From a virus, in IMG/VR virus record IMGVR_UViG_3300040801_004562, positions 1 to 64,000 of that record: DNA of 64,000 bases, one strand, 5' to 3'. A model generated the notes under the pieces. That model was not told the DNA's origin, did no database searches, and saw only the letters and a list, made by a program, of their open reading frames with translations. This document shows, one piece after another, positions 3,222 through 59,864 of the stretch. Position numbers and translations under genes: made by a program. The stretch's first letter is position 1; the number at the start of each line of letters is the position of its first letter.

Positions 3222-3239
3222 TTTGCAAACGTTTGCAAA
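3222..3239. promoter_or_regulatory. 18-bp palindrome site 2 (exact)
   Basis: TTTGCAAACGTTTGCAAA lies immediately after the SSB stop codon and 12 bases before the helicase start. Confidence 0.85.
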
Positions 3240-11311: not shown

Positions 11312-11340
11312 TTGACAAATGATCTTACCTCTGATAAATT
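11312..11340 (+). promoter_or_regulatory. Sigma-70-like promoter, ACCTTTG-spacer family (copy 3)
   Basis: TTGACA (11312-11317), 17-base spacer ending TTACCTCTGA, TAAATT (11335-11340). It precedes the gene at 11371 and the sugar cassette behind it. Confidence 0.8.
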
Positions 11341-11370: not shown

Positions 11371-12366
11371 ATGCGTCCGGATGACGCCCGTTATGGCGCT
11401 CACAGCGCAATTCAGAAAGCGGTTCGGAGGGGGGATCTTGATCTGGGGAAAACGTCTTTTGACCTCATGTGGCCTGCAAAGCCTCACCGGAACTGGCTGA
11501 AGTGGAGACTGACCTCTATCATCCAAGAAGACGTCTGGCCGCTGATCGGCGAGCTGCCGGACTTCTTCTCTGCTGCTCGTGATCTGACCGGTGCGGCTGA
11601 GGAAGAGCACTGGCGGAAAATGGTTTACCGCATGATCATTGCCCCTGCCAACAAAGACGCCGGTGCCTTGTCCAATCTTGCCCGGAGAACTGAGCCGGAA
11701 GAAAATGAACACCCGGAGCTTGCCCTGACCAGAAAGTGGTTTGCTCTGATGAAAGAGCGCGGGGACGATCCAGGAAAAGTTGCTGATGATCTTTTCGAGT
11801 CCCTGCTTGCTGAATATCCTGTTACCGATTACCAGAAAGCGGCCCTGCGGATTCTGGTCAAGCGAACGCAGATGGGCGGCATGCTCGGGGATCGTCAGTT
11901 GTCCCTGCCTGCCATGATTCTTGTTGTCCTTCGGAAGCTTGACCCCGAGGCAGTCCGAGAGGGGGTCAAGAAGGGAGCCGCTGACTGGGCCCAGCAGTCA
12001 GGACGGAGGAATCCCGTTACCGTTCCACTCCCCTGGTATTCCTTTGACATGCACACGCAAGTCGGAAAAATTGCCTTGTCCTCTTATTCCCGCCGATCAA
12101 AGATTGACCGCGACCAGCTTTTCAACTTGTGGTTCCTTGCTGAAAGCGCTTTCATTCCCCGATGGCACTGCCAGTTTTCCAGAATCGTTGATCACCCCAC
12201 CGTCTTTGATTCCATGTGGTGGCCCGTTGCCTTCAAGGAGCGGCTCGGCCCGAGCCTCAACGGCTCCACTGCAAAACAAAACCTCCAATGGTGGCGTGAA
12301 GAATTGAGAGAGGACGTGAAGGGACTCATTGAATGGCTGCTGACCAAACGCGAGAGCGAAGACTGA
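11371..12366 (+). CDS. Phage protein resembling the C-terminal helical region of MgsA-type clamp-loader ATPases
   Basis: 331 residues. The opening segment (DDARYGAHSAIQKAVRRGDLDL, then RLTSIIQEDVW) resembles the S-x-Q-K-S-x-R-R and EDVG segments of the MgsA/RarA C-terminal tetramer domain, and FDMHTQVGK near residue 227 resembles its DMHTxxG segment. No Walker A or B is present, so this would be the helical collar without the ATPase. In cells RarA/MgsA acts at stalled forks; a replication role is inferred. The similarity is from memory of the motif, not from alignment. Confidence 0.55.
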   Translation: MRPDDARYGAHSAIQKAVRRGDLDLGKTSFDLMWPAKPHRNWLKWRLTSIIQEDVWPLIGELPDFFSAARDLTGAAEEEHWRKMVYRMIIAPANKDAGALSNLARRTEPEENEHPELALTRKWFALMKERGDDPGKVADDLFESLLAEYPVTDYQKAALRILVKRTQMGGMLGDRQLSLPAMILVVLRKLDPEAVREGVKKGAADWAQQSGRRNPVTVPLPWYSFDMHTQVGKIALSSYSRRSKIDRDQLFNLWFLAESAFIPRWHCQFSRIVDHPTVFDSMWWPVAFKERLGPSLNGSTAKQNLQWWREELREDVKGLIEWLLTKRESED

Positions 12367-13046
12367 CCGAAACGTGGCGAGGGCGGGTCCGCCCGATCTC
12401 CTATTCAGCTTTCCCTACCATTCCCGATCCCGATATGACCAAACCCTGGTCATCCTGGAAGCGCAAAAAGACTGTAGAAAACGGGGTTGTCAAACTGCTG
12501 AAGGTAGATGGGGAAAAAGCCGTATTTCAGTTTGCGGTGAATGAGATCAAGCTCCTGTTCGGTGCCCGCCCCCTGAAGGTTGAAGTTGTCTTCGAGACTG
12601 AAGAGGAGATGCTGGCCCAGTTCATTGATTGGATTCCCGCCTTTACCAATATAGGTAAGATGGGCGCGTGGATGCGTGACACCCAAAACATGAAGGAGAT
12701 TGTCCGTCTGTTGCTGTTTGACGCGGTTGTCGCCAATAACGATCGGATGGTCTGCAATGTTCTGGTCGGGAAGGACTTCCGAATTTTTGGGATAGATGAA
12801 GCTGACTGCTTCCGGTTCAATTCCCCGGTTAAAATCAAATTCCGGAAGAGCTACCGAGATCGGATTGTCGGCTTTGCCAATCTGGAAAAGCCCTGGCTTG
12901 ACGAGCTTGTTGACTGTGCCTCATCCAAAACTGACGTTGTGCGGGACATTCTGGAGCGCTGCAGCCTGCCTGATGAACTCGTCTCCCCCATTGTTGACCG
13001 GATGCAAAACCTCGGAGATCTGGCCGTCCGTCTCTTTAAGGAGTAG
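12333..13046 (+). CDS. Putative HipA/PI3K-like small kinase
   Basis: 237 residues. The key segment is LLFDAVVANNDRMVCNVLVG near residues 127-146 followed by RIFGIDEADCF: a D-x3-x-N-x-DR-x3-N catalytic loop and an ID metal-binding strand, the pattern in HipA, FAM20-like and PI3/4-kinase folds. A glycine-rich N-lobe loop is not obvious, and residues 50-75 may form a beta sheet with lysines. It overlaps the preceding gene by 34 bases and sits directly before a methyltransferase and sugar genes. Substrate unknown: a protein or a small sugar-linked molecule is possible. Confidence 0.55.
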   Translation: MAADQTRERRLTETWRGRVRPISYSAFPTIPDPDMTKPWSSWKRKKTVENGVVKLLKVDGEKAVFQFAVNEIKLLFGARPLKVEVVFETEEEMLAQFIDWIPAFTNIGKMGAWMRDTQNMKEIVRLLLFDAVVANNDRMVCNVLVGKDFRIFGIDEADCFRFNSPVKIKFRKSYRDRIVGFANLEKPWLDELVDCASSKTDVVRDILERCSLPDELVSPIVDRMQNLGDLAVRLFKE

Positions 13047-13048
13047 CC

Positions 13049-13750
13049 ATGAAATTGTACGAGCGCGACAAGATTCCTGAACACAACCGGGTTGATCCGG
13101 TTGTCATCCCCCGTGCCGAGCTGATCGCCTGGATTGGGAAGGAAAAGTGGTATCAAACGATCAGCTTTTCCGAGGATATTTCCACCCCCGGCTCTTTCGA
13201 CTCAGAGGCCCAGATTGACAGCGTACTCCTGCACAAAGACATGTCTGGTATGCGTTATCTCGACATTGGGAGTAACCAGGGATTCCAGGTCATGTCTGCT
13301 GCGATGCGCGGTGCTGAGGCTTTCGGTATCGACAATAAGAAGAATCAGGTCTTGAAAGCCCGACGGATTGCTGCCCATTTCGGCATTCGCGCCGACTTCA
13401 CCCACTGCGATATTTTTGACACTCCCGAGCGCTATGCTGAGTACAGGACCGGGTTCGATTATATGACGATGATGTCAGTTTTCCACCATTTCAGAAAGCC
13501 TTTGCTCGCCTTGGATATTGTCCGTGGAATGTGTCGTGGCCAAATGCTTGGGGAGTTCTGCTGCTGGATAAAAGGTGAGAAGCGTTGGCTGATGGCCAGA
13601 AAGTTTCCGAGCGACTGGGGAGACTACTACCACAAAGCGTACCCGACGCTTGACTGCTGCGTGGCTGCGCTGGAAGAGAGGTTTTCACGTGTGACCGTTC
13701 TCGGTCCCGTTAAAACGAAATGGCGGATTGCCATCCTGAGCGAGGTATAG
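13049..13750 (+). CDS. Class I SAM-dependent methyltransferase
   Basis: 233 residues. MRYLDIGSNQGFQVMSAA near residue 69 is motif I of the Rossmann SAM site, AFGIDNKKNQ near 90 gives the acidic residue after strand 2, and FDYMTMMSVFHHFRKP near 137 fits motif IV. The architecture is that of small-molecule or sugar methyltransferases. The gene is 2 bases downstream of the kinase-like gene and 1 base upstream of the UDP-GlcNAc 2-epimerase gene, so it belongs to the sugar cassette. Confidence 0.8.
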   Translation: MKLYERDKIPEHNRVDPVVIPRAELIAWIGKEKWYQTISFSEDISTPGSFDSEAQIDSVLLHKDMSGMRYLDIGSNQGFQVMSAAMRGAEAFGIDNKKNQVLKARRIAAHFGIRADFTHCDIFDTPERYAEYRTGFDYMTMMSVFHHFRKPLLALDIVRGMCRGQMLGEFCCWIKGEKRWLMARKFPSDWGDYYHKAYPTLDCCVAALEERFSRVTVLGPVKTKWRIAILSEV

Positions 13751-13751
13751 C

Positions 13752-14843
13752 GTGAGAATTCTCGTTGTCGCGGGAGCAAGACCGAACTTTATGAAAGTGG
13801 CCCCGATTGTCCGGAACCTCACCGGCAGGGCCACTTTTTGCCTTGTCCATACCCAGCAGCACTGGGGGGACATGTCGGATGGGTTTCTGGAGTCACTCCG
13901 GATTGATCCCTCCATTATCAAAAGACTGCCGTTTGACGGTGGAGGTATGAGCCTTTTGCACACGTTTGCAAGAGTCTCAACCCAACTGGAGCCGGTTCTG
14001 GAGGACTTCCGTCCCGATTGGTGCGTCGTAGTCGGGGACGTGACCTCAACTGCTGCTGCCGCCCTGGCTGCAAAATATCATGGAATCCGTGTTGCCCACG
14101 TCGAGGCCGGGCTGAGGAGCTTTGATCAGTCCATGCCGGAAGAGATCAACCGGATGGTGACTGACAGTATTTCTGACCTTCTTTTGTGCTCCGAGGATAG
14201 CGGTGTTACGAACCTTCTCGCTGAGGGAAAACCGAGCCACTCTGTTCTGCTTGTCGGGAACGTGATGATCGACAGTCTGAAGTACGCGATAGAGTCCCTA
14301 CAGCCGTCTGAGATGGCCGTGGAGACGCGTTCTCTGCTCGGTGAGAGGTTTGGGTTCTGTACCCTTCACAGACCCTCCAATGTGGACCGTGTGGAGGATC
14401 TGAGGCGGCTCCTGGACACCATTTCAACCTGTTCTGCAATTATCGGCGGTAAGATCGTTATGCCGATCCACCCGAGAACTGAGAACCGGATCAAGGAGTT
14501 TGGGCTGCAACTCGGCCCAGGAATCCACCGGCTGCCCGCCCTGCGGTATGAGGACGCTCTATTTTTGATGCGAGGTGCCTGCGTGGTATTGACCGATAGT
14601 GGTGGTATCCAGGAGGAAACGACGTGGCTTGGGATTCCTTGTGTAACCCTGCGGGAGAACACGGAACGTCCGGCCACCTGCACCTACGGGACCAACCGGA
14701 TCGCTGGGGTCTCACGCGATGGGATCATGCTTGCTACCCGGCAGGCGCTTTCCGGCTCTGCAGAATACGTTGTGCCTCCCTTCTGGGATGGCAACGCTGC
14801 TGAAAGAATCGTCAACATTTTACTTGAGGAGGGGAATAGATGA
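13752..14843 (+). CDS. wecB: UDP-N-acetylglucosamine 2-epimerase
   Basis: 363 residues, GTG start. AGARPNFMKVAP opens the fold; HVEAGLRSFDQSMPEEINR near 116-134, LHRPSNVD near 199 and DSGGIQEETTWLGIP near 281-295 are hallmark motifs of WecB/MnaA enzymes that interconvert UDP-GlcNAc and UDP-ManNAc. The catalytic acidic and histidine residues in these blocks are present, so it should be active. An imperfect palindrome (13955-13972) lies within the gene. It overlaps the next gene by 4 bases. Confidence 0.9.
   Translation: MRILVVAGARPNFMKVAPIVRNLTGRATFCLVHTQQHWGDMSDGFLESLRIDPSIIKRLPFDGGGMSLLHTFARVSTQLEPVLEDFRPDWCVVVGDVTSTAAAALAAKYHGIRVAHVEAGLRSFDQSMPEEINRMVTDSISDLLLCSEDSGVTNLLAEGKPSHSVLLVGNVMIDSLKYAIESLQPSEMAVETRSLLGERFGFCTLHRPSNVDRVEDLRRLLDTISTCSAIIGGKIVMPIHPRTENRIKEFGLQLGPGIHRLPALRYEDALFLMRGACVVLTDSGGIQEETTWLGIPCVTLRENTERPATCTYGTNRIAGVSRDGIMLATRQALSGSAEYVVPPFWDGNAAERIVNILLEEGNR
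13955..13972. promoter_or_regulatory. 18-bp palindrome site 6 (two mismatches, inside wecB-like gene)
   Basis: TTTGCACACGTTTGCAAG, two changes from the common form; translated as LHTFAR. Confidence 0.5.
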
Positions 14844-15790
14844 AAGCATTGGTGACAGGAGGCATGGGGTTTATTGGTGGAGCCGTCGTGAACAAGCTTC
14901 TACGTGATGGGAATCGGGTGGTGGTCGTCGACAACATGTTCGATCCTGTTTTTCGGACGATGGCGGACCAGCGAAACCGTAAACTCACCCTGCATACCTT
15001 GGACTGCCGCAACCTGGACGGGCTGCTTAAGCTCGACGACGATATAGACGTTGTTTTCCACTTTGCGGCCCACTACGCAAATGAGCGGTCCCTGCAGGAG
15101 CCTCTGGCCTCTGTTTCAATTAACATGCTCGGCACCATGGCCGTCCTGGAGTTCTGCCGTATCCGTGGGGTCAAGCGGCTCGTCTACGCCTCAAGCAGTG
15201 GCGTTTACGGATCGATGGATATCGTTGCCTACAGCGAGAACCAGCCCCCTGCACCCTCCACCCCCTATGAGGTCACCAAGTACTCGGGAGAGCTGCTCTG
15301 TTCGGGGTACTGCGAGATCTACGGGATATCGCTGGTTGCCCCCCGGTATTTCAACGTCTACGGCCCTGGAGACGTTGCTGGTGAGTGGCGGGCGGTTATC
15401 CCGAAGTTCTTCGCGCTGGCAAAGAGAGGCGAGCCCCTCGTCATAACTGGGGAGAACGCGTCTCGGGACTTCACCTATATCGATGATGTCGTGGAGGGGA
15501 CGCTTGCTGGCCTGACCCGGGTCGATGAGGCCCCCTCAAGAATCACTTTGATCTATAATATCGGGACTGGTCGTGAAGTCTTCGTGAAGCACCTTGCCGG
15601 ACTTGTGGTCAAGGTTTCCGGCAGTAAGTCCGAAGTCATTACCAAACCCAAGAGGAATTGGGACAACGCACCACGTCGCGTTGCAGACTGCCATAAATAT
15701 CAGGCCCTTTTCCCTGATATCGCTAACCGGATGCGCTCTATCGACACCGGACTCCAGGATGCGTGCGAGTGGTATATGGACGTGTGCTGA
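14840..15790 (+). CDS. NAD-dependent nucleotide-sugar epimerase/dehydratase (extended SDR)
   Basis: 316 residues. VTGGMGFIGGAVV gives the N-terminal NAD-binding GxxGxxG, YASSSGVYG near 116 the catalytic serine region, and PYEVTKYSGE near 140 the Y-x3-K pair. YFNVYGPGD and FTYIDDVV follow at the usual spacing for UDP-glucose 4-epimerase or dTDP-glucose 4,6-dehydratase-like enzymes. The exact reaction cannot be set from sequence. With the 2-epimerase, deacetylase and aminotransferase it could supply an unusual amino sugar. Confidence 0.88.
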   Translation: MKALVTGGMGFIGGAVVNKLLRDGNRVVVVDNMFDPVFRTMADQRNRKLTLHTLDCRNLDGLLKLDDDIDVVFHFAAHYANERSLQEPLASVSINMLGTMAVLEFCRIRGVKRLVYASSSGVYGSMDIVAYSENQPPAPSTPYEVTKYSGELLCSGYCEIYGISLVAPRYFNVYGPGDVAGEWRAVIPKFFALAKRGEPLVITGENASRDFTYIDDVVEGTLAGLTRVDEAPSRITLIYNIGTGREVFVKHLAGLVVKVSGSKSEVITKPKRNWDNAPRRVADCHKYQALFPDIANRMRSIDTGLQDACEWYMDVC

Positions 15791-15800
15791 GGAGCTTTGG

Positions 15801-16454
15801 ATGAGAGATCTCGATTCAATCAGAAGCTGGTACGAGGAAAAGATCAGACGAGGGGAATTGGATCTGAGTGGATGGAGGCTGAGCCTGAGCCGTGAGCTGA
15901 GGTGGGACGCAACGTTCAGTCAGATCCACAACCTTTATGGCCCTTGCCATCTGTTGGCCGAAAAGCTGAAGGTTGTGGACTTCGGCTGCGGAACTGCCGG
16001 AATGTACTTTTCAATGTCATCCTGGATCTCGGAATATATCGGGATTGAAATCAGGGACGACGCTTACCGGGAGGCGCTCAGATGGGCTGGGCTGGACCCC
16101 CACATCGAAGTTCTACGCGATATCCCGGACTATTTTTACAGAAAGATGGATGTGGTGGTGAGCAATGCTGTTCACGGGCTGCCGGGACAAGACCCCATCG
16201 CCGACTTCAAGGCGCTCGATCGTGCTTTCAGGCCGAGGATGATTGTTGCTGATTTTTATTGCTCCAGGCATCCGCCGTCTTTGGGGTTTGAGGGAGGAAA
16301 GGCGTACGATCCCTTCGAAATGACCGAGAATATGGTGACGAATCTTGGGTTCAACAGTTTTTCGCTTGACCACACAAGAATGCCGCATGTCTTCACGGTT
16401 GCGGTTGTTCGCGGACGAACCGCTTGGGAAAGGATGAACGAGAATGCTCTTTGA
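15801..16454 (+). CDS. SAM-dependent methyltransferase
   Basis: 217 residues from ATG 15801 with a GAGGAGC site. KVVDFGCGTAGMYFSM near residue 57 is motif I; IGIEIRDDAYREAL near 76 gives the acidic ribose-binding position; DVVVSNAVHGLPG near 119 fits motif IV. It is unlike the methyltransferase at 13.0 kb in length and motif wording, so the cassette has two distinct methyl transfer steps. It overlaps the deacetylase gene by 11 bases. Confidence 0.82.
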   Translation: MRDLDSIRSWYEEKIRRGELDLSGWRLSLSRELRWDATFSQIHNLYGPCHLLAEKLKVVDFGCGTAGMYFSMSSWISEYIGIEIRDDAYREALRWAGLDPHIEVLRDIPDYFYRKMDVVVSNAVHGLPGQDPIADFKALDRAFRPRMIVADFYCSRHPPSLGFEGGKAYDPFEMTENMVTNLGFNSFSLDHTRMPHVFTVAVVRGRTAWERMNENAL

Positions 16455-17070
16455 TCGGGTGCTTGTTGTCGGGGCTCATGTAGACGACGCTGAACTGTTC
16501 GCTGGCGGGACGATTGCCAGATTTGCATCCACAACCCGAATCATGGTCTTTTCGCGACATTGGGGAATACTCCCCTCCCCGGAGGAAGAGTTCCGGCGGA
16601 GCTGCGAGGTCCTTGGGGTGGAATACGGCCACTGTATCAGCCGGGACCTGCCAGCCTGCCAGCCTGCCGGGGCCTCATTTCACGCAAACCGGCATGGAAT
16701 CTATAGAGAGCTTGAATCATTAAGAAATTCGTACAAGCCCACCCTTGTTATCACCCATCAGTCGACGGATACGAACCAGGACCACCGCCAAGTCCACGAA
16801 GAGGTCCTGCGGGTATTCCGAAAAACGTCCATTCTCTGTGGAACGTTCCTGCTGAATGATCTCCCCTCTGCCGACCGCCGTTTTTTTGTCGCGGTGGACA
16901 GCCTCCATCTGCAGAAGAAGATTGACGCCCTATCCTGCTATGAATCCCAGATCCGCGAGCATCGGACGTACTTTGATCCTGCACTTATCACCTGCGAGGC
17001 GCGGGTTTATGGTGAGATGGTAGGTGAGAAGTACGCAGAGGCATTCGAAGTTATCCGGCTGCACGTATGA
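16444..17070 (+). CDS. PIG-L/LmbE-family deacetylase
   Basis: 208 residues. AHVDDAELFAGGT at about 11-23 carries the zinc-binding H-x-DD motif and THQSTDTNQDHRQVHEE near 103 the HxxD and downstream histidine ligands of PIG-L/LmbE amidases, which remove N-acetyl groups from GlcNAc-type conjugates. In this cassette it may deacetylate the product of the epimerases before or after transfer. All metal ligands expected for the family seem present, so activity is plausible. Confidence 0.85.
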   Translation: MLFDRVLVVGAHVDDAELFAGGTIARFASTTRIMVFSRHWGILPSPEEEFRRSCEVLGVEYGHCISRDLPACQPAGASFHANRHGIYRELESLRNSYKPTLVITHQSTDTNQDHRQVHEEVLRVFRKTSILCGTFLLNDLPSADRRFFVAVDSLHLQKKIDALSCYESQIREHRTYFDPALITCEARVYGEMVGEKYAEAFEVIRLHV

Positions 17071-17079
17071 GGACGCCCC

Positions 17080-18591
17080 ATGGCCTGCAAATTTTTATGT
17101 GATCCAATCTACACGCTCAAGGATACGAGACGGTGCATCGCCCATTATTCAGTTGACGAGTGCGCCCGGCATGTCTTAAACAAGTACCCGGATTCTTTCG
17201 TGTATTACATCCGACCGGCGGAGCCTGGAGACGATCATTTCATTTTCGAGGAGGATCTGGCCGCAGACTTTCCCGGACGGGTCAAGTACTGGAACGGCTT
17301 CCATATCCCCCACAACCGAGTTTTTCAGTTCATTTGGAGGCATGAGTGGTTTTCCGATCTGATTGCCGGTACAGGCTACGCATGGGACTGGGACGTTTTG
17401 CTGACCATGCGCGGGCCTGTCATGCAACACGTGAAGTGGCTGAACTGGGGAGGGACCCATCAGGCCAAGAAGATCCTGATCCAGGACCATTTCCCGATTC
17501 TTGACTTCAAGGTTGCCGCCAAGTTCTATTTCAGAGGGGACAAGATGACCCAGCTTACCACGCTTGGATCCTACGCCTGCGCGGACAAGGTTGTGGTTGG
17601 TGCGGACTACGAGGCCAAGCGCATTATGAAGACAGCCCGCCAGTATCTCTCCCCCTCAATTTGCAAACGTTTGCAAAACAAGTTGGAATCCGGTTTTGTG
17701 ATCCCACGTGGACTCGACCTGGAGTATCCGTTCAAGAAGACAGCACCGAAGAAAGGGCGTCCCATTGTCGGTATCTTTACCCAGCGGATCGGGCTGGCCG
17801 GGAGACACCCGTTTGCCGCCCTCGACGCCTTCTTCTACAGCTTCGTTCAGCGGGACTCTGAGAGGGTCAAGTTCCATATCTCCACCAACTCTATGACGTC
17901 GTTTTCTGACGATGCCCTGAACAAATACTCGTTTGTGGAGTTCTACCAGTCAGATCGGTCTCAGTTCTACGAGAAACTCCGTCAATCCGACTTCTGCATC
18001 AGCTTCAGCACGACCGAGGGAATGCCAACGTCCATCCTGGAGGCGGTCTGTTGGGGCTGCATCCCGGTGCTGGTCAGGTATGACTGGTCGGTGGATATGG
18101 TCGGAGAGGATTACCCGCTTCTTTTCCGATCGCAGACGGAGGCTGTTGCCATGGTAGGGAAGATCCTGGACAACCCGGCTGAGATGTTTGCCCGCTACCA
18201 GGAGTGGTATCGTTCTTATTTCCTCCCTTACCTTGACCGCTGTGGGAGCCTTCTGCGAGCCTGTGAGGAGATGGTGGAGCGAAACGCCGTTGAAGTTGAC
18301 GAGTTTGCTTCAAAACGCCAGGACAACCCGCTTTATGGGGAGATCCAGAAGTATGTGGAAAGAAAGAAGATCCGTCGGGTTGTCCTGTATGACCTCCTTA
18401 AAAAGCTGAAGGAGGAGGGGATTATCCGTGTTGATCCTGATATTATGGGAGTTGGGAAGCGACCGCAGCGGGCGATGGGGCGGGCGGTTCCTGCCCGGCT
18501 GCCGAACTATTATACCATCCTGCATACCCTGCTGAAGAAGACCGGGTGGCAGAGAGGACTTGAGGTTGGCGAAATTGTTACCGATCTTTAA
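17080..18591 (+). CDS. Glycosyltransferase, GT-B fold (GT4-like)
   Basis: 503 residues. The second half has the sugar-nucleotide-binding lobe: IVGIFTQRIGLAGRHPFAAL near 227, FVEFYQSDRSQFYEKLRQSDFCISFSTTEGMPTSILEA near 285-322 with the EGMP...E signature of GT4-type retaining transferases. The N-terminal half (residues 1-200) would bind the acceptor. About 100 C-terminal residues are basic and unusual for the family, perhaps DNA- or protein-binding. It closes the sugar cassette and is the enzyme that would attach the sugar. It carries an exact palindrome at 17660. Confidence 0.8.
   Translation: MACKFLCDPIYTLKDTRRCIAHYSVDECARHVLNKYPDSFVYYIRPAEPGDDHFIFEEDLAADFPGRVKYWNGFHIPHNRVFQFIWRHEWFSDLIAGTGYAWDWDVLLTMRGPVMQHVKWLNWGGTHQAKKILIQDHFPILDFKVAAKFYFRGDKMTQLTTLGSYACADKVVVGADYEAKRIMKTARQYLSPSICKRLQNKLESGFVIPRGLDLEYPFKKTAPKKGRPIVGIFTQRIGLAGRHPFAALDAFFYSFVQRDSERVKFHISTNSMTSFSDDALNKYSFVEFYQSDRSQFYEKLRQSDFCISFSTTEGMPTSILEAVCWGCIPVLVRYDWSVDMVGEDYPLLFRSQTEAVAMVGKILDNPAEMFARYQEWYRSYFLPYLDRCGSLLRACEEMVERNAVEVDEFASKRQDNPLYGEIQKYVERKKIRRVVLYDLLKKLKEEGIIRVDPDIMGVGKRPQRAMGRAVPARLPNYYTILHTLLKKTGWQRGLEVGEIVTDL
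17660..17677. promoter_or_regulatory. 18-bp palindrome site 7 (exact, inside glycosyltransferase gene)
   Basis: TTTGCAAACGTTTGCAAA, translated as part of SICKRLQNK. Confidence 0.85.
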
Positions 18592-18607: not shown

Positions 18608-19513
18608 ATGGCTACCAAGTATCCGACTTTCATGGAAGAGGCCGAGATCGCAGCACTGCTTGAGGGGAAACTTGACCTTGAGCACGGGGACGTTATCGAT
18701 GTTTCAATGAAGCTTGTCATGCCAAACGAGTGGAACCCGAACGAGATGTCGCTCGACGAGTTCAACATGCTGTCTGACAACATACACGAAGTTGGGTTCC
18801 TCGACCCGGTGCTGGTAGTCCCGGTATTCCAGGACGATCGATATCGCTTCCGCGTCGTAGACGGCGAACACCGGTACGAGGCCCAGAGGCTTCGGGATGC
18901 CGTGGTCCTGAGAGCGGTGTACACCTCTCCTGACCGGTTTGACGAAAACACCCAAAAGTTCCAGACTGTCCGTATGAACAAGATCCGGGGGAAGATGAAC
19001 CAGAAAAAGTTCTCGAATCTGGTCTCCGATCTCATGCAAAGCGGTGCCTACACCTACGACCAGTTGGCTCATAACTTTGGCTTCGTTGACGAGGATGAGT
19101 TTGAACACCTGATTGAACGGACTCGGGAATCGCTGCCGACGGAGGATATGAAGAAGGAGTTCGATAAGGCGAAGGACGACATCAAGACCGTGGATGACCT
19201 AAGCCTCGTCCTGAACCGCCTGTTCACTCGTTACGGTGATTCGCTGCCGTATCATTTCATGGTCCTGGACTTCGGAGGAAAGGACCACCTATGGGTCCGA
19301 ATGAAGCATTCGTCTTACCGGCAGGTCGTTGCCCAGGCCCGAAACGCGATGGAGGCTGGTGTAACGTTCGATTCGGTGCTTGCAACTGTCCTGTCGGTGA
19401 TGAATATGCCGAAGTTTGTTGACAAGTGGCGGGATCGCCTTGACGCTCCTGACCCAAAACAAGATGAAACCAGCATCGACGACCTGATCGAGTCTGATGA
19501 GGACGCCGCCTGA
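18608..19513 (+). CDS. ParB-like nuclease-domain protein
   Basis: 301 residues with AAAGGAGGGG upstream. Residues 35-105 match the ParB/Srx N-terminal fold: a PNEWNPNEMS entry, EVGFLDPVLVVP, YRFRVVDGEHRYEAQRLR with the GEHR box that in ParB binds CTP or in nucleases supports catalysis. Residues 118-175 are helical (NQKKFSNLVSDLMQSGAYTYDQLAHNFGF), possibly a helix-turn-helix. The C-terminus is acidic (DETSIDDLIESDEDAA), like the SSB tail. Exactly one base after its stop lies a perfect copy of the dispersed palindrome. It precedes the terminase genes, so a role in packaging or DNA partition are both possible. Confidence 0.8.
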   Translation: MATKYPTFMEEAEIAALLEGKLDLEHGDVIDVSMKLVMPNEWNPNEMSLDEFNMLSDNIHEVGFLDPVLVVPVFQDDRYRFRVVDGEHRYEAQRLRDAVVLRAVYTSPDRFDENTQKFQTVRMNKIRGKMNQKKFSNLVSDLMQSGAYTYDQLAHNFGFVDEDEFEHLIERTRESLPTEDMKKEFDKAKDDIKTVDDLSLVLNRLFTRYGDSLPYHFMVLDFGGKDHLWVRMKHSSYRQVVAQARNAMEAGVTFDSVLATVLSVMNMPKFVDKWRDRLDAPDPKQDETSIDDLIESDEDAA

Positions 19514-19544: not shown

Positions 19545-20321
19545 ATGGAAGTGAATAGGGAATTCCCTCCTGATCTGAAGGGAAAGGTTGAGCTGACCGG
19601 GCAGTCGCTTATCGATAAGATGCGGGAGGCTGTAGCCCCGCCCGGTAAGAAAGGAACGTGGCTGCGGAAGCTGAACAATCACCAACTCGCCGAGGTTTAC
19701 CACCGGCTGAAACTCGGCCAACCGGCGTACAAGATCGCGCAGATAGCCCAGGTAGAGTGGGGATACCACAAGAAGTCCGCTATCAAATCCCTTGCCCGGG
19801 CTGTCCGTAAATTCAAAGAGGACATGCTCGGTGACCTCACCCTTGAAAAGACGAGTCCGTTCCCAAGTAGGGCAGAGGAGGGAAAGAAGCTCTCGAAACG
19901 TGCCCAGAATATAGTCAAGATGCTCGATTCGATGGGGAGGTACCGCTGGGCGATTGAGTGCCAGACTGAACGTGTTGCCATCCTGCGGGAACGAGAGAAG
20001 AATGCCATCCCCTTCAAGGCGACGGAGGATGCAATCCGGACACTCTCCGACATGCTTGACCGGTACACCCATCTGGAGATCAAACTCGGTACGCTCGACA
20101 GCAAGCCGTCAGAGATCAACCTGAATATCAAAGGAAGGTTTGACGGCCTGCTGCAGCACACGGTGCAGCCCGGCACTGCGGTTGTGGAGGCCACGGATAA
20201 GTGGCTCTCGCTTTGCGAGAAGAACGCCCTTACGCTGAAGCTCGGTGAGGATGGTGCCTACCGGCTTGAGGCCCCGGAGGAAGAGTTTGATGCTTGCTCA
20301 CCAAAAAGTCCTCCCGATTGA
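19545..20321 (+). CDS. Putative terminase small subunit
   Basis: 258 residues. It lies directly before, and overlaps by 32 bases, the large terminase gene. Residues 45-85 (LNNHQLAEVYHRLKLGQPAYKIAQIAQVEWGYHKKSAIKSLARAVRKF) read as a helix-turn-helix DNA-binding region, followed by a long helical segment (REREKNAIPFKATEDAIRTLSDMLDRYTHLEIKLG) suited to oligomerisation. Both agree with small terminases, which recognise the packaging site. The assignment is by position and architecture, not by strong sequence identity. Confidence 0.55.
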   Translation: MEVNREFPPDLKGKVELTGQSLIDKMREAVAPPGKKGTWLRKLNNHQLAEVYHRLKLGQPAYKIAQIAQVEWGYHKKSAIKSLARAVRKFKEDMLGDLTLEKTSPFPSRAEEGKKLSKRAQNIVKMLDSMGRYRWAIECQTERVAILREREKNAIPFKATEDAIRTLSDMLDRYTHLEIKLGTLDSKPSEINLNIKGRFDGLLQHTVQPGTAVVEATDKWLSLCEKNALTLKLGEDGAYRLEAPEEEFDACSPKSPPD

Positions 20322-22332
20322 TGCTGCGGTGGCACTTGCGATGGAGGTTGGGCAGAGCATGGATGCCCGCCTCACCCCGCAAGAGTCCCAGATGATTCAG
20401 CTCATTGCCCAGAGCTGCAAGACTCTCGACGTCGACGGGACGCCCTTTGTCTACCTTGAGGAGCTGCGCGGTTTTGTAACCAACCTCCAGAAGGCGATCG
20501 TTGAGAAGGACAGCAGCTTCCTGATGCAACGTCGTGGCCTGCGAGTGGATCGCGTGGTGGACGTTCAGGAATTCGTCGAGTCCAGAGAGTTCATGGGACA
20601 GGCCGGATACATCCGGCCCAAGGTCCTGGAAGGTTTGATCGAGCTTTTCGGGAACGAGCGCTACATCGAATGCGTCTTGTCCGGCTCGATCGGGTGGGGT
20701 AAGACGTACTTCGGGTATATGGCAATCGGATATATGATTTATCTGCTATCCTGCTACCACAACCCGCAGGCTGAGTTCGACCTCGCCCCCGGAACGACGA
20801 TTGTCTTTATCCAGCAGTCGAAGACCTACCAGCTCGCCAAAAAGGTCGTATTCGAGCAATTCAGCGAGCTTTTGCGACAGAGCCCGTATTTCAAGAACTC
20901 ATTCCCCTATGATCCTGGGGTGAAGTCCGAGCTGCGGTTCCCAAAGAACATCCTGGTCCTGCCTGTCGGCGGTTCCGATACTGCCGCCCTCGGCATGAAC
21001 GTCTTTGGGGGGATCATCGATGAAATGAACTTCATGCAGCGCACGCGGGACAGTGTGAACGTACAGCACACGAACGAGGAGGAATACGATCAGGCAGAGA
21101 GGCTCTACACGACGATCCGACGTCGTATGACCTCCCGCTTCATGCAACGTGGAAGACTCCCCGGAAAGCTGCTGCTTGTGTCCTCTGTGAACTACCCGGA
21201 CGACTTTACCAGCAGGAAGATGGAGGAGGCCCGAACAGACCCCACCATTCTTGCCATCACCCATAGCCAGTGGGCGGTTCTGCCTGCTGACCGCTTCTGC
21301 GGAGACACGTTCCTCGTAGAAGTCGGCAACGAGTTCAAACAGAGTCGTATCTTACGGTCCATAGAGGAGGCAGTGGACGTCAGCGACGTACTGAACGTCC
21401 CGGTCGAGTACCGTACGGAGTTCGAACGCGATCTGGAATCCGCCCTTCGCGATCTGGCTGGGGTGACCAGTGGGACCCGAAACCCCTTCATTCCCTACCG
21501 GCAGGAGATTATCCAGGCTGCGGAGGAATTCGGCAAGGCCACGGATGGTCGGCAGCTGTTCAGAATGCCTGAGATCAACATTAACGAGATAGCAGACGCC
21601 AGTGCGCCGGATTGGAGCCGTATCGTGGACGTCAGCTATATTGATGAGTGCCTGCTTGACCGGTCCCAGCCCTTTGCTGTTCACCTTGACGTTGCTCTGT
21701 CCGAGGACTGCTGCGGGTTGGCGGTGGGCCACATAGCGGGGTACAAGATGCTGCCCAGCACGAAGTTTTACAGCGAGCGGCGAAGGGAGTTCGTTGAGAT
21801 CCGTGACATACGCGCCCCAATTTACCAAATAGATGGTGTGCTGCGCGTAGTGCCGCCGCGTGGAGGAGGTGAGATCGACCTGCAGCTTTTGCGGGACCTC
21901 GTATTGTGGCTTCGAGGCGAGCTGTTTATCAAGTGGGGGACGTGCGACAGTTACCAATCTGCCATGATGATTCAGGCGTTTAGAAAAGCGCGGGTGAGAT
22001 CCGGTGTCCTGTCTGTTGATCAGTCCATAGCACCGTACACGGAGCTGAAACTGGCCACGAAAGATGGTAGGCTGCTGATCCCATACCACGAGATGTTGAT
22101 GAAAGAGATGCGCGAGGTCGAGAAATGCCCGGATAAAGACAAGGTTGACCACCCACCCGGCGGGAGCAAGGACTGTGCTGACGCAGTTGCCGGTGTTGTC
22201 TTCATGCTGCAGACCAAGGAGGCCAGCTACGGCCGACCCGTGGCATCGAGGAGGACCGTCGACGGCCAGTCGGTGGCCAGAGGCGGCGGGAGAGTCCGTA
22301 AAGTGAGGATGGGGAATTCCAGACGACGGTAG
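20290..22332 (+). CDS. Terminase large subunit
   Basis: 680 residues. The ATPase has Walker A SGSIGWGKT near 131 and Walker B FGGIIDEMN near 240 with the catalytic glutamate. The C-terminal RNase H-like nuclease is marked by AVHLDVALSEDCCG near 464 (first Asp), TCDSYQSAMM near 551 and SKDCADAVAG near 625 (last acidic residues). It powers DNA packaging through the portal and cuts the concatemer. The start is set by GGAGGAAGA before ATG 20290. The C-terminus is arginine-rich. No portal gene follows, which is unusual. Confidence 0.92.
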   Translation: MLAHQKVLPIDAAVALAMEVGQSMDARLTPQESQMIQLIAQSCKTLDVDGTPFVYLEELRGFVTNLQKAIVEKDSSFLMQRRGLRVDRVVDVQEFVESREFMGQAGYIRPKVLEGLIELFGNERYIECVLSGSIGWGKTYFGYMAIGYMIYLLSCYHNPQAEFDLAPGTTIVFIQQSKTYQLAKKVVFEQFSELLRQSPYFKNSFPYDPGVKSELRFPKNILVLPVGGSDTAALGMNVFGGIIDEMNFMQRTRDSVNVQHTNEEEYDQAERLYTTIRRRMTSRFMQRGRLPGKLLLVSSVNYPDDFTSRKMEEARTDPTILAITHSQWAVLPADRFCGDTFLVEVGNEFKQSRILRSIEEAVDVSDVLNVPVEYRTEFERDLESALRDLAGVTSGTRNPFIPYRQEIIQAAEEFGKATDGRQLFRMPEININEIADASAPDWSRIVDVSYIDECLLDRSQPFAVHLDVALSEDCCGLAVGHIAGYKMLPSTKFYSERRREFVEIRDIRAPIYQIDGVLRVVPPRGGGEIDLQLLRDLVLWLRGELFIKWGTCDSYQSAMMIQAFRKARVRSGVLSVDQSIAPYTELKLATKDGRLLIPYHEMLMKEMREVEKCPDKDKVDHPPGGSKDCADAVAGVVFMLQTKEASYGRPVASRRTVDGQSVARGGGRVRKVRMGNSRRR

Positions 22333-24256: not shown

Positions 24257-24605
24257 GTTCAATGTGGAGGAGGAGCAACGGCCGAGGGTGAAGCGGGTGC
24301 TGCTGAATAAAATTGTCGGGTACTCGCCGGAGATGGGGGTGATGGTGTATGAGGATCCGAGGGATGGCTGCCGGTATGGGGTTTACTTGCGGACGGGGGC
24401 GAAGAAGAGGTTGGATCTGTTCGATGTGAGGGTATGGACGGTGGGGCCGGATGGGCGGCAGCGGGAGGTGGTGACGGAGGTGTGCCAGTTTGTTGATCCG
24501 CCTGAACCGGCACTGTCGCATGCACCAGAGTGTGAATGTATTGATTGTCGGAAGAGGCAAAAGGCGTTGGAATTCGTTGATGACTTTGGACAGCCGGGAG
24601 ACTGA
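24240..24605 (+). CDS. Hypothetical protein with C-terminal CxCxxC motif
   Basis: 121 residues, GTG start at 24240 preceded by GGGAGGGGG. The first 75 residues are beta-rich (VYEDPRDGCRYGVYLRTGAKKRLDLFDVRVWTVG); the end has ECECIDCRK, a probable metal site. It overlaps both neighbours by a few bases, so is co-translated. No family recognised. Confidence 0.7.
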   Translation: MTRAIRFNVEEEQRPRVKRVLLNKIVGYSPEMGVMVYEDPRDGCRYGVYLRTGAKKRLDLFDVRVWTVGPDGRQREVVTEVCQFVDPPEPALSHAPECECIDCRKRQKALEFVDDFGQPGD

Positions 24606-24829
24606 TGATGATTAGAGAGATGAGCGATGGGATGGCGAGGAGTATCCGGATCAGTGTGTACCTGAAGGATGGGAGGAGCTTCCGGCAGAGGAATGTGCCG
24701 CCGAACTTCTTCGGGGACCATGAGCGGGTGGTGTCGTTTTGGGAGGGGGACGTCCTGATGGTGTATCCGATGCGGGATGTGGAGCATGTGGAGTACCACT
24801 TTGAAACTACCACCACGGTGACGGTGTAG
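24605..24829 (+). CDS. Small beta-rich protein ending in a TTTTVTV tail
   Basis: 74 residues. SIRISVYLKDGRSF and VSFWEGDVLMVYPMRDVEHVEYHF read as a small beta barrel. The last residues ETTTTVTV are a member of the threonine-tail set otherwise found on virion proteins at 49.6-59.9 kb, which hints that this product may also be displayed or processed with virions. Function unknown. Confidence 0.68.
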   Translation: MMIREMSDGMARSIRISVYLKDGRSFRQRNVPPNFFGDHERVVSFWEGDVLMVYPMRDVEHVEYHFETTTTVTV

Positions 24830-31967: not shown

Positions 31968-32270
31968 ATGGGAGAGAACTTGAAGCCGTTGGTAGATGAG
32001 AAAATCGTTGGTAAGTTCATCGACAAGGCCCTGACGCTTGGGGCCGGACTACTGGAAAAGGCGGAGACTGACAATGCTGCCCACATTCTGAGGATCCTGA
32101 AGGACCTTAGTCCGTATGTGGGAAATGGGGTCGGGATGGTCTCCCAGGCCACGGCACGGGAGCGGAACACGATTGTCGAAAAGAAGATGGCACAGTTGGG
32201 GTATAAGAAACGGGAAGAGGAAGATAAAAGAACAGGCCAAGTTGATCAGAAAGGAGACCCGGCACAATGA
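31968..32270 (+). CDS. Hypothetical helical protein
   Basis: 100 residues, AAAGGAGAC upstream. Helical throughout, with a lysine- and glutamate-rich C-terminus. It overlaps the aminotransferase gene by 4 bases, so the two are co-translated. No family recognised. Confidence 0.65.
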   Translation: MGENLKPLVDEKIVGKFIDKALTLGAGLLEKAETDNAAHILRILKDLSPYVGNGVGMVSQATARERNTIVEKKMAQLGYKKREEEDKRTGQVDQKGDPAQ

Positions 32271-33430
32271 ACTTTGCCAACCTGGATCGTCAGGCTGCGA
32301 TGTACTTCCGCGAGCTGAACGCTGCTGTGGCGGACGTCTGCAGCCACGCCAAGTTTATCCTGGGACCGGAGGTAGAGCACTTCGAGTCCCTCATGGCCGA
32401 GCGCTGCAAGAGGAAGCACGCCATCGGCTGCGCCTCCGGGACTGATGCACTGACCATGGCCCTGATGGTTGCCCGTTCCTGGAAGAAGACCGGGGGAACT
32501 GTCCTGACTTCTCCCTTCTGCTTCGTTGCGACGGCGGAGGCTGCTGCCCTTCTCGGGATGGAGGTCCTCTTTTCGGACATCGAAGTCGAGACCTTCTCCC
32601 TTGACCCGGAATATGTCTGGGCGGAGGTGAACCGGCAGGCCCCCTGGTGGCGTCCTACCGACGGTCGACTCCGGACCCTGGATGCGGTTGTGATCCCCAA
32701 TATGTTTGGGAGGATGGCCCAGTGGGAGCGGTTCGAGAAACTCCAAGCGCGGGGGATCATCCTTATTGAGGACGCTGCCCAGTCCTTCGGTGCCTCACGG
32801 GGTGGTAGGCCCTCCGGGTGCTTCGGTGATATGTCTATTCTCTCGTTTTTCCCCACCAAGCCTCTGGGATGTTATGGGGACGGTGGGATGGTCCTGACCG
32901 ACTCTGATGAATACGCCGACATGTTGCGATCGATCCGGTCCCACGGCTGCGGGAATTCCAAGTATGATCACCGGATGGTCGGGATGAATTCCAGGCTGGA
33001 CACGATCCAGGCTGCTGTCCTGCTGACCAAGATTGAATGGGTAGAGAAGGAGCGGTCCCGGCGGATAATGACCGCCCAGCACTACTGTTCCGAGTTTGAC
33101 GGGCTCGACTGGCTGTACGTCCCTGAACATGGGGAGGACTCAGCCGTTGCCCAGTTCTCCCTTCTCCTTCCGAACAAGCGGATTCGGTACGCGTTCCAGG
33201 AATACATGAAATCCCAGGGAATCCCGACCATGGTGCACTACCCGAAACCGTTGAATTTACAGGTCCCCTACCTCGACGGGAAGGTTTACGAGCAGGCCCA
33301 GGAAACGTGTGGGAGAATAGTCCAGATCCCCTGCGATGCTTACATGACAGATGAGGAAGTTCTTCAAGTGGTGACGGCGGTGAAGATGTTCGATTCCGCC
33401 CCAATGTTCGGATTGACAAGCGAAGGATAG
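32267..33430 (+). CDS. DegT/DnrJ/EryC1/StrS-type sugar aminotransferase
   Basis: 387 residues. CASGTDALTMAL near 51, TSPFCFVATAEAA near 76, LIEDAAQSFGA near 164 (Asp contacting PLP) and SFFPTKPLGCYGDGGM near 188 with the PLP-binding lysine are the signature of sugar aminotransferases, which convert keto sugars of nucleotide-sugar pools into amino sugars. The nearest partners (epimerases, deacetylase, glycosyltransferase) are 14 kb upstream, so the pathway is split between two operons. All key residues are present. Confidence 0.9.
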   Translation: MNFANLDRQAAMYFRELNAAVADVCSHAKFILGPEVEHFESLMAERCKRKHAIGCASGTDALTMALMVARSWKKTGGTVLTSPFCFVATAEAAALLGMEVLFSDIEVETFSLDPEYVWAEVNRQAPWWRPTDGRLRTLDAVVIPNMFGRMAQWERFEKLQARGIILIEDAAQSFGASRGGRPSGCFGDMSILSFFPTKPLGCYGDGGMVLTDSDEYADMLRSIRSHGCGNSKYDHRMVGMNSRLDTIQAAVLLTKIEWVEKERSRRIMTAQHYCSEFDGLDWLYVPEHGEDSAVAQFSLLLPNKRIRYAFQEYMKSQGIPTMVHYPKPLNLQVPYLDGKVYEQAQETCGRIVQIPCDAYMTDEEVLQVVTAVKMFDSAPMFGLTSEG

Positions 33431-50855: not shown

Positions 50856-51443
50856 ATGGCTCTTACCACCCATATCGGCGGGGGCGAATCCGACAGCTTC
50901 GTTACAGTTGAAGAGGCTGACGGCATCGTTGATTCCCTCTTTACTGACGCCAGTTTCTGGGAGGATTTATCGGAAACCCAGAAGGAGCTGCGGCTGCAGT
51001 TGGGAGCCCAGTTGCTGGGACATTTCCCGTTGCGGGGGCGTCCGGTATTCAGGAATCAGCGTCTGTGCTTTCCCCGTGATTGCGTGCCCTACGGACAACG
51101 GTTCTCAATCCCTGCTGACGTCAAAAAGGCCCAGGTCTGGCTCGCGGCCGATGCTGTTCACCGCGCCCTTTCCTCCCTGCCTGATGCTGAAGCCGGGCTT
51201 CCGTCGTTGTACGGCAGGCCGTCGCAGATCTCCCTCGGTGGCCTCCTGTCGGTTTCTTTTTCCGGGGACTCCACGGCTGGGGGATCTCTCGTCGAGCGGA
51301 TCGCTGCCTCCCTTCCCTTCACAATCCAGATGCAGATGAAAAAGTATATGGCCCAGATCCGTGGGGGATCTGTTGGAGAGGAGCGAACTTTGTCCACTAC
51401 CACAACGGTTTTGGTGACCCCAACGACCACCACGACGATTTAG
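50856..51443 (+). CDS. Head-tail connector/adaptor-like protein with threonine tail
   Basis: 195 residues. DSFVTVEEADGIVDSLF and DVKKAQVWLAADAVHRALSSLP near 90-112 follow the helical pattern of gp6/gp15-type adaptor proteins that join the portal to the tail. The C-terminus RTLSTTTTVLVTPTTTTTI is the longest threonine tail in the window, with two blocks of Thr separated by LVTP. Homology is by pattern and position. Confidence 0.65.
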   Translation: MALTTHIGGGESDSFVTVEEADGIVDSLFTDASFWEDLSETQKELRLQLGAQLLGHFPLRGRPVFRNQRLCFPRDCVPYGQRFSIPADVKKAQVWLAADAVHRALSSLPDAEAGLPSLYGRPSQISLGGLLSVSFSGDSTAGGSLVERIAASLPFTIQMQMKKYMAQIRGGSVGEERTLSTTTTVLVTPTTTTTI

Positions 51444-52892: not shown

Positions 52893-53435
52893 ATGCCTGC
52901 TAACCCGCACAGTACGACCCTCTACCAGCTCGGGAAGGGCATTCTGTACATTGCAGAATGGAATGGATCGACTCCGCCCGATGTTGGTGCCTTCTCAGAC
53001 GTCGGCAACTGCCCCCGTTTTGAGGTGGAGGTCTCCGAGGAGAAGCTGGACCACTACAGCTCCCGGTCCGGAGTCAAGCAGAAGGACAAGACCGTTACCC
53101 TGGAGATTGGGTACACGGTGAACTTTGATCTGGATGAGGTTTCTATCGGCAACCTCGCCCGGTACCTGCGCGGCACCCTTACCGGGAGCAAGATCAATGC
53201 GCTGACGGCCCTGGACAAGGAGTACGCTCTGAAGTTTGTCTCCGACAACCCGGTCGGGGAGAACGAGAAATGGGAGATGTGGCGCGTCCGACTGACCCCT
53301 GGAGGACCCTTCAACCTGATTTCTGACGAGTGGAACGTGATGTCCTTCTCCGGTGAAGGTCTTGCCGACACCACGAATCACGCTATCAGCCCGTACTTTG
53401 ACGTGAGCTGGTTCACCACCACTACCACAGTATAA
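52893..53435 (+). CDS. Major tail tube protein with threonine tail
   Basis: 180 residues. LYQLGKGILYIAEWNG near 10-25, CPRFEVEVSEEKLDHYSSRSGVKQKDKTVTLEIGYTVNFDLDE near 44-86 and a beta-rich body match tail tube proteins, which polymerise into the tail around the tape measure. It ends in SWFTTTTTV, one of the clearest threonine tails. One tail tube gene and no sheath fits a siphovirus. Confidence 0.8.
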   Translation: MPANPHSTTLYQLGKGILYIAEWNGSTPPDVGAFSDVGNCPRFEVEVSEEKLDHYSSRSGVKQKDKTVTLEIGYTVNFDLDEVSIGNLARYLRGTLTGSKINALTALDKEYALKFVSDNPVGENEKWEMWRVRLTPGGPFNLISDEWNVMSFSGEGLADTTNHAISPYFDVSWFTTTTTV

Positions 53436-58766: not shown

Positions 58767-59864
58767 TTGCTGCTGGATTACGTTACATACACGAACTTGA
58801 CCGGATGTTCTGATTTCTTCAACAAGCTTCGCCTCTGGGCTGTATCTAAAGGGTGGACCCAAGAGGAGTGGTTGGAGAATGTGACTTGGGGAACGTCTCC
58901 TTATGGTTGGAAGACAGATTCAAGAGCGGATTTTCTTCAGCTCTCCAAGACCGGCTATGGGACTCAGAATTTGATCGCTGCTATTTCCTCTATGATAAAG
59001 GAGGATTATCCGTCGTGTAGCCTTGCCATCTGTATGCGGAGCCAGACTGCGTACGAAACATCCTCTAGCAAGCATCCGATGAACCAGAACCCGCTGGTTG
59101 GAATGATAAGTTCGCTAACTGCGGACAGCTTGTTTTATCAAGGAGTAAATAATGCTTGTGGCGGTCTTGATCTCACCGCGTCGGATAACATCCCACAAGC
59201 GTGGTTTTTTGCGGGGCCACACTGGATTTGTGCCGTCGCTAAAATGAGTGAAGAGTTCTGTCAGATGATGCACTTCGGGTCGTTTGAGATGTTTGAAGAC
59301 AACCCGTCTCAGGGCCAGTGTTTCGGCATGACCACCACTGTTTATGGTCCTGGTTCTTATGAGTACGATACAAGTTGGAAGACTGGATGGGAGCGCCGTC
59401 TCTTCTTTACCACCCCCTTTTCTTCCGGGAAGAAGAGTGGATTCAGCTACTACACGAACCACGGACTCGGGTTTTACTACTTCAACCGTGCGTCGATTGC
59501 TCCGTACGGAACGAATTACATTTACCATCGCGACAACTGCCACGTTTACTTTGGGGATTACTGGTCCGCATCGTCCGGAGGGAATGAGCTGCTTGGCGTT
59601 TCTGGGGCAGTTCTTTCGAACCACTTTTCAGCAAAGCGACCAATGATCAAGCCGATTTTTGCCATCCAACGTCCTGCTGATAGCGTTTGGGTTCCTGTTT
59701 TCAAAGCTCCTGTTTGGTGCCTAAATACTGCGGGGCTTGAAATTGGACAGCAGCTTGAGCAGGACGGATCGAAGTACCTCGTATTTCCGTTCCCGACGAT
59801 TTATACCCCGCAGGGATACGCCTTTTGTATTGATGACGGCACCCTTACCACGACGACGGTTTAA
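58767..59864 (+). CDS. Tail protein, tandem paralogue A, with threonine tail
   Basis: 365 residues with a TTG start behind AAGGAGA. LLDYVTYTNLTGCSDFFNKLRLWAVSKGWTQEEWLENVTWG, then QLSKTGYGTQNLI and MMHFGSFEMFEDNPSQGQCFGM, all repeat in the next gene. The end reads GYAFCIDDGTLTTTTV, adding a threonine tail to a shared GYAF end. Likely tail-tip or receptor-contact proteins arising from tandem duplication. Confidence 0.7.
   Translation: MLLDYVTYTNLTGCSDFFNKLRLWAVSKGWTQEEWLENVTWGTSPYGWKTDSRADFLQLSKTGYGTQNLIAAISSMIKEDYPSCSLAICMRSQTAYETSSSKHPMNQNPLVGMISSLTADSLFYQGVNNACGGLDLTASDNIPQAWFFAGPHWICAVAKMSEEFCQMMHFGSFEMFEDNPSQGQCFGMTTTVYGPGSYEYDTSWKTGWERRLFFTTPFSSGKKSGFSYYTNHGLGFYYFNRASIAPYGTNYIYHRDNCHVYFGDYWSASSGGNELLGVSGAVLSNHFSAKRPMIKPIFAIQRPADSVWVPVFKAPVWCLNTAGLEIGQQLEQDGSKYLVFPFPTIYTPQGYAFCIDDGTLTTTTV

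Follow-up and report, generated by a model that had tools for sequence, protein, structure and literature searches.

What does a phage do with a compact set of amino-sugar enzymes encoded immediately ahead of its ParB and terminase genes? This question is raised by IMG/VR virus record IMGVR_UViG_3300040801_004562, a virus fragment of 98,252 bases whose start falls inside the dnaB gene; bases 1-64000 of it are the stretch analysed here (the window). The window does contain seven plus-strand genes, separated from one another by -34 to +16 bp, that make up a compact operon, the cassette (Table 1): they encode a kinase-like protein, two methyltransferases, a 2-epimerase, an SDR epimerase, a PIG-L de-N-acetylase and a glycosyltransferase (GT). 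A first-pass annotation had called it plausible that the phage makes and attaches a methylated or deacetylated amino sugar; a sugar that is both fits the enzymes encoded. The annotation had left the target open among DNA, the host surface and the threonine tails of virion proteins. Here phage DNA is favoured as the likeliest acceptor at about even probability, while the host surface is considered less likely.

The cassette is a conserved module beside ParB and terminase genes

Megablast of the region against phages gave no match, and a single-protein scan of IMG/VR with the GT found no relatives; a profile was required to detect them. By tblastn against annotated phages, only nine records matched the GT. 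Eight of these belong to phages of ~87-102 kb, namely Rhizobium RHph_TM16 (TM16) and Y1_11, Stenotrophomonas DLP3, DLP5 (two records) and Summit, Rhodobacter RcZahn and Vibrio KarBoss, and the ninth to Arthrobacter phage DanielleIgnace (61 kb), in which the cassette is reduced. The GT is homologous over its full length to RcZahn_146, DLP5_105 and the KarBoss and TM16 proteins (hhalign probability 99.8), and PIG-L likewise matches that of the relatives (98.8).

Phage neighbourhoods and IMG/VR loci have a common block in the order RapZ-C, RarA-C, PIG-L, SDR, DegT, methyltransferase, GT, ParB, small terminase (TerS) and large terminase (TerL), with gains and losses. Of 19 loci, 17 have ParB as the first recognised gene behind the GT; the exceptions are L012, with ParB-TerL upstream, and L025. 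Locus L018 is cut and comes from the same record as L034. Where a locus reaches far enough, ParB is almost always followed by terminase genes. The smallest set with tailoring enzymes (L028) consists of PIG-L, methyltransferase and GT, and the TM16 cassette contains neither PIG-L nor methyltransferase, so the GT-ParB core stays constant while the tailoring genes vary. When five genomes were clustered, only eight families occurred in all of them: DnaB, RecA, a Cas4-like nuclease, TerL, PolA, portal, GT and DegT (ParB was missed in the DLP5 open reading frame (ORF) set, though tblastn finds it there). Pairwise GT identities track those of DegT (r 0.96) and PIG-L (r 0.94), as expected of one module. 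Judged from these comparisons, the cassette behaves as an inherited module and not as a passing moron.

The present phage can be placed in this class, defined here as the ParB-linked GT cassette of large siphophages. Its GT precedes ParB and then terminase, and PIG-L and a RarA-C-domain gene stand in one operon, a combination from which some members, such as TM16, lack PIG-L. DegT lies 14 kb downstream instead of inside the cassette, which is no strict requirement, as L028 is also without DegT. The phage shares the GT-ParB-(TerS)-TerL order, PIG-L, SDR, DegT and the RarA-C-domain protein with DLP3 and DLP5 (Delepquintavirus), RcZahn, TM16 and KarBoss, and adds a 2-epimerase and the kinase-like gene.

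Phage DNA as the proposed acceptor

Genomic DNA of DLP3 resists all 15 restriction enzymes tried, by a modification that its authors call undetermined (PMC7326821), and just 4 of 36 cut that of DLP5 (PMC5834331). Both phages encode PIG-L, SDR, DegT, methyltransferase, GT, ParB and TerL. The DLP3 authors named DNA and lipopolysaccharide as possible GT targets and tested neither (PMC7326821).

The first gene of the operon (11371) provides a possible tie to replication. It is orthologous by profile to RcZahn_141 and to KarBoss and TM16 genes in the equivalent place (hhalign probability 94.7, E 5.7e-8); the profile of its family hits six solved structures of the C-terminal domain of RarA/MgsA, a protein associated with replication, among them 8g28, 2r9g, 2qw6 and 3pvs (E 5e-8 to 1e-3). 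The family is without the ATPase part of RarA/MgsA; its L026 version carries an N-terminal SWIM-type Cys/His motif, as read from the sequence.

DNA is favoured because the ParB/terminase placement is conserved, the cassette has a RarA-domain partner and the DNA of relatives is restriction-resistant. The absence of membrane segments from all cassette proteins (hydropathy) and conservation of the set across differing host surfaces likewise fit an intracellular acceptor handled with DNA. Hence the block could form the sugar branch of a system that hypermodifies phage DNA, for which we see the chances as evenly balanced.

In the scheme that we infer for acceptor, order of steps and sugar, the epimerases, probably with the aminotransferase encoded at 32267, would convert host UDP-N-acetylglucosamine (UDP-GlcNAc) into an unusual amino-sugar nucleotide, and the GT would transfer the sugar to a nucleobase of the phage DNA. 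PIG-L would remove the N-acetyl group and expose the amine, and one or both methyltransferases would cap the sugar. The RarA-C-domain protein may tether the enzymes at replicating DNA, the co-location with ParB and terminase suggests that modification would be complete before packaging, and the product would protect the genome from host nucleases. More tentatively, the cassette might stand for a class of DNA hypermodification independent of TET enzymes and hydroxymethylases, in which a GT family with ParB and terminase neighbours and a RarA-like replication tie attaches a methylated, de-N-acetylated amino sugar to bases, as an inherited core trait of a ~90-100 kb phage lineage; this wider proposal is rather doubtful.

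Several results weigh against DNA as the acceptor. Tet_JBP was found in 0 of 12 records (the present one being a fragment), and C5-cytosine DNA methylase and TGT-family transglycosylase (7-deazaguanine route) each in 0 of the 10 records searched. The record of this phage contains no match to PF00303, the family of the thymidylate synthase (TS)-fold hydroxymethylases, and no ThyX; among relatives, G001 carries a ThyA-type gene, RcZahn has ThyX and DLP5 gives a marginal ThyX match. No known source of a base attachment point is therefore at hand: either the enzyme that makes this handle lies in the missing part of the record, is of an unrecognised kind or is a host enzyme, or else the acceptor is something other than DNA. 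The restriction resistance comes from distant relatives with a GT only 19-24% identical, no gene has been linked to it in DLP3 or DLP5, and a PPDK/phosphatase group shared by the relatives could equally cause it. Neither methyltransferase is detectably related to those of the relatives by hhalign, and the SDR is 25% identical to theirs, compared with 59-77% among relatives from different hosts, and thus not orthologous; it is a canonical epimerase of other origin. Finally, the GT does not resemble in sequence AGT and BGT, the DNA glucosyltransferases of T4, neither of which appeared at E<=1 in a profile search of PDB sequences or among the 50 Foldseek matches listed for the GT model.

The PPDK/phosphatase group consists of a PPDK-like kinase, one or two tyrosine-phosphatase-like genes and a phrog_20946 protein near TerL or PolA (for example L009:4303-9547), with homologues in DLP5, TM16, KarBoss, L013, L015, L017 and L034. 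It was considered as a source of the base handle; no homologues were found in this phage.

Another candidate clue was set aside. The DLP3 cassette methyltransferase DLP3_099 (L039:4149-4829) has been published as the macrolide-resistance enzyme Erm(45), in a test that compared lysogen with wild type and not the gene alone. It was not used as a hint of an adenine target, as it has no Pfam match even with the threshold at E 10, and its place in a sugar cassette suggests a role other than Erm(45).

The PIG-L, WecE, methyltransferase and GT genes of DLP3 and DLP5 were previously treated as moron genes or host-surface modifiers. A lineage-wide, packaging-linked core block offers a specific gene set to test for the DNA chemistry of both phages. 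A search of the literature available here returned no papers on phage amino-sugar DNA. If the proposal is true, an amino sugar would join the known DNA hypermodifications, and a new way of making the attachment point would be implied.

Other possible acceptors

Six proteins, mostly from the structural region, end in TTTTV-, TTTTTV- or TTTTTI-type tails (T4-5(V/I)); they are encoded at 24605-24829, 50856-51443, 52893-53435 and 58767-59864 of the window and at 63956-66592 and 66820-67653 of the record. All TTTT runs of the proteome fall within the last 20 residues, and the threonine codons of the tails are mixed, which indicates selection at the protein level. Virion glycosylation is a known phenomenon in phages (cited in PMC12619734). 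The cassette sugar may accordingly be O-linked to these tails, as reported for mycobacteriophage capsids; we regard this as unlikely. The tails noticed in the first-pass annotation are real, but T4-5(V/I) tails are missing from four relatives that share the cassette, and a separate GT cluster matches the tails more closely in position and occurrence. This second glycan cluster (record 67712-84724; L002:4713-17759, L003:777-4721) stands among and after the tail genes and contains GTs at 67712, 76581, 77508 and 83717, hexapeptide transferases at 79402, 79878 and 80336, and a WbpB-like Gfo/Idh/MocA protein. Because relatives have the cassette without the tails, these, if glycosylated at all, are assigned to the cluster at 67.7-84.7 kb.

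A role in modifying the host surface, with seroconversion or superinfection exclusion as the outcome, is improbable as well; the DLP3 authors had proposed host-surface modification for their GT. Such a role would suit the WecB/WbpI-, WbpE- and WbpB-like enzymes, which are members of O-antigen pathways, and the temperate nature of DLP5 and DLP3 (PMC5834331, PMC7326821). The cassette, however, includes no flippase, polyprenol GT or membrane protein by hydropathy, in contrast to gtr-type seroconversion, and the set is retained beside ParB in phages of Stenotrophomonas, Rhodobacter, Rhizobium, Vibrio and Arthrobacter, whose host surfaces differ.

Synthesis of a small-molecule glycoside akin to bacillithiol or mycothiol, in which the GT would glycosylate a metabolite for deacetylation by PIG-L, is very unlikely: PIG-L is nearest to BshB1 and the GT model matches the MshA and BshA folds, but the Pfam scan of ORFs (structural ORFs only partly covered) showed no BshC/MshC cysteine ligase, and the ParB/terminase linkage, the RarA-domain partner and the modified DNA of relatives would be left unexplained.

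Operon layout and firmness of the enzyme calls

The seven-enzyme operon of the first-pass annotation is confirmed, with sound calls for six of the enzymes and a weak one for the kinase, and it is larger than proposed. It starts at 11371 instead of 12333 and extends through ParB (18608) and the terminase genes to 22332, interrupted by no sizeable gap. A ribosome site AGGAGG (AAAAGGAGGGTTGCC-ATG) is well placed ahead of the 11371 gene. The promoter-like site further upstream is a weak match on its own, since the scan returned 9 sites compared with 6.5 expected by chance.

Table 1. Coordinates of the operon, its neighbours and the distant aminotransferase gene.
Positions	Strand	Feature	Evidence
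11312..11340	+	promoter-like site TTGACA-17-TAAATT before operon	consensus scan
11371..12366	+	RarA/MgsA C-terminal-domain protein, first gene of operon	profile orthology, RarA/MgsA structures
12333..13046	+	kinase-like protein (weak; alternative start 12435)	NCBIfam TIGR03843
13049..13750	+	S-adenosylmethionine (SAM)-dependent methyltransferase	Pfam Methyltransf_31 3.8e-11; TIGR04290 3.9e-19
13752..14843	+	non-hydrolysing UDP-N-acetylhexosamine (UDP-HexNAc) 2-epimerase (WecB/WbpI type)	Epimerase_2 1e-87; TIGR00236 wecB above cut-off
14840..15790	+	SDR nucleotide-sugar epimerase (4-epimerase type)	Epimerase 5.5e-52; best PDB 6pmh 2.2e-50
15801..16454	+	second SAM-dependent methyltransferase	Methyltransf_25 3.6e-4
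16444..17070	+	PIG-L family de-N-acetylase	PIG-L 1.7e-13; BshB1 1.5e-11, below cut-off
17080..18591	+	GT-B fold retaining-type glycosyltransferase	length-wide homology to relatives' GT; predicted fold
18608..19513	+	ParB-like nuclease-family protein	phrog_26387 2.4e-60
19545..20321	+	likely small terminase (TerS)	weak homology to relatives' genes between ParB and TerL
20290..22332	+	large terminase (TerL)	34-37% identity to annotated TerL of DLP5, RcZahn, KarBoss, TM16
32267..33430	+	DegT/WbpE-like pyridoxal phosphate (PLP) aminotransferase	DegT 1.3e-82; PDB WbpE 3.9e-62

Pfam matches of the GT are weak (Exostosin 3.4e-6, GT4 4.8e-5). The call is nevertheless firm because of the predicted GT-B fold (model pLDDT 71; Foldseek E down to 5e-9, with GlgM, SenB, PimA, MshA and BshA) and an E-x7-E motif that is invariant across the aligned relatives. 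Catalytic motifs are intact in PIG-L (HVDD and QDH, conserved throughout the cassettes, with H-x-D-D in all aligned sequences), in the SDR (SSSGVYG and YEVTK, the latter of YxxxK type) and in DegT (PTK..GDGG). The second methyltransferase, weak by Pfam, has a DFGCGTAG motif and weakly resembles (30% over 81 aa) one of the genes of cassette L026; a longer TTG start at 15594 would overlap the preceding gene. For the kinase-like gene, the weak call comes from a sub-threshold match to the SCO1664 family (2.1e-6) around the motif NNDR...GIDEADCF. Neither the PDB search nor the single-protein IMG/VR scan returned a relative, and the single-sequence AlphaFold model (pLDDT 40) is uninformative.

The aminotransferase and the sugar

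The first-pass annotation suggested that DegT, 14 kb away, could supply the amino group. Such a role is plausible because relatives encode DegT within the cassette, although this copy is nearer to bacterial WbpE than to their DegTs; its closest PDB relative is the uncharacterised DegT 4qgr, followed by WbpE. The 2-epimerase is closer to WbpI in the PDB (2.8e-59) than to E. coli WecB (3.5e-39), and the Gfo/Idh/MocA gene at record position 80777 comes nearest to WbpB. This likeness suggests, at the level of homology, a sugar of 2,3-diamino-uronic type; no WbpA was seen. WbpE, WbpI and WbpB are thus among the nearest solved relatives of three proteins here, as in the WbpB-E-D-I pathway to UDP-ManNAc3NAcA. 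In contrast to that pathway, the genes are scattered over 67 kb, the WbpB-like protein has only 239 aa, and the archaeal UDP-GlcNAc 2-epimerase 4neq ranks first among solved structures for the 2-epimerase, ahead of WbpI.

The SDR here carries the ordinary epimerase signature SSSGVYG..YEVTK, and the sugar probably differs from that of the relatives. The SDR of the relatives' cassettes (L006:12299-13240 and homologues) keeps YxxxK and has NVAKPHF in place of the catalytic SSS motif of epimerases; with this signature and the low identity, it was rejected as an ortholog.

Comparison with known modification systems

Phage clusters for cytosine hypermodification that combine TET (5mYOX) enzymes with GTs have reportedly been described by Pyle et al. 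2024. A phage GT and sugar-tailoring enzymes are common to those clusters and the cassette, for which a DNA acceptor is a working hypothesis; Tet_JBP and C5-methylase are absent from this phage and the compared records. The glycosyl-hydroxymethylcytosine systems of T4 and RB69 and the pentosyl-cytosine of Shewanella phage Thanatos likewise combine a phage GT with sugar-nucleotide enzymes and protect from restriction. Unlike these, the present phage has no TS-fold hydroxymethylase, a GT unrelated in sequence to AGT/BGT, and an expected amino sugar with deacetylase and methyltransferases in place of glucose or pentose. The first steps of bacillithiol and mycothiol synthesis (BshA-BshB, MshA-MshB) share a GT4-like GT followed by PIG-L deacetylation, whereas here no ligase partner is seen and the genes are linked to replication and packaging. 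The cassette would be a variant, as yet unproven, of phage sugar hypermodification clusters, and one that is testable on already isolated phages.

Other features of the record

The palindrome TTTGCAAACGTTTGCAAA is dispersed in the genome, with 36 both-strand matches in the window compared with 1.45 expected (positions 3222, 8584, 11267, 13955, 17660, 19515, 22729, 24180, 30724, 35657, 37941, 40225, 47622, 52861 and 63596). One copy begins 2 bp past the ParB stop codon. Four relatives have their own TGCAR-N4-YTGCA versions, in 16-34 copies each compared with 0.35-0.6 expected and with a spacer of 4 only. The dispersed palindrome may be a ParB/parS-like or a repressor site. Beyond the window, record positions 85470-88049 encode a DNA polymerase I with an N-terminal family-4 uracil-DNA glycosylase domain (TIGR00758 1.1e-28).

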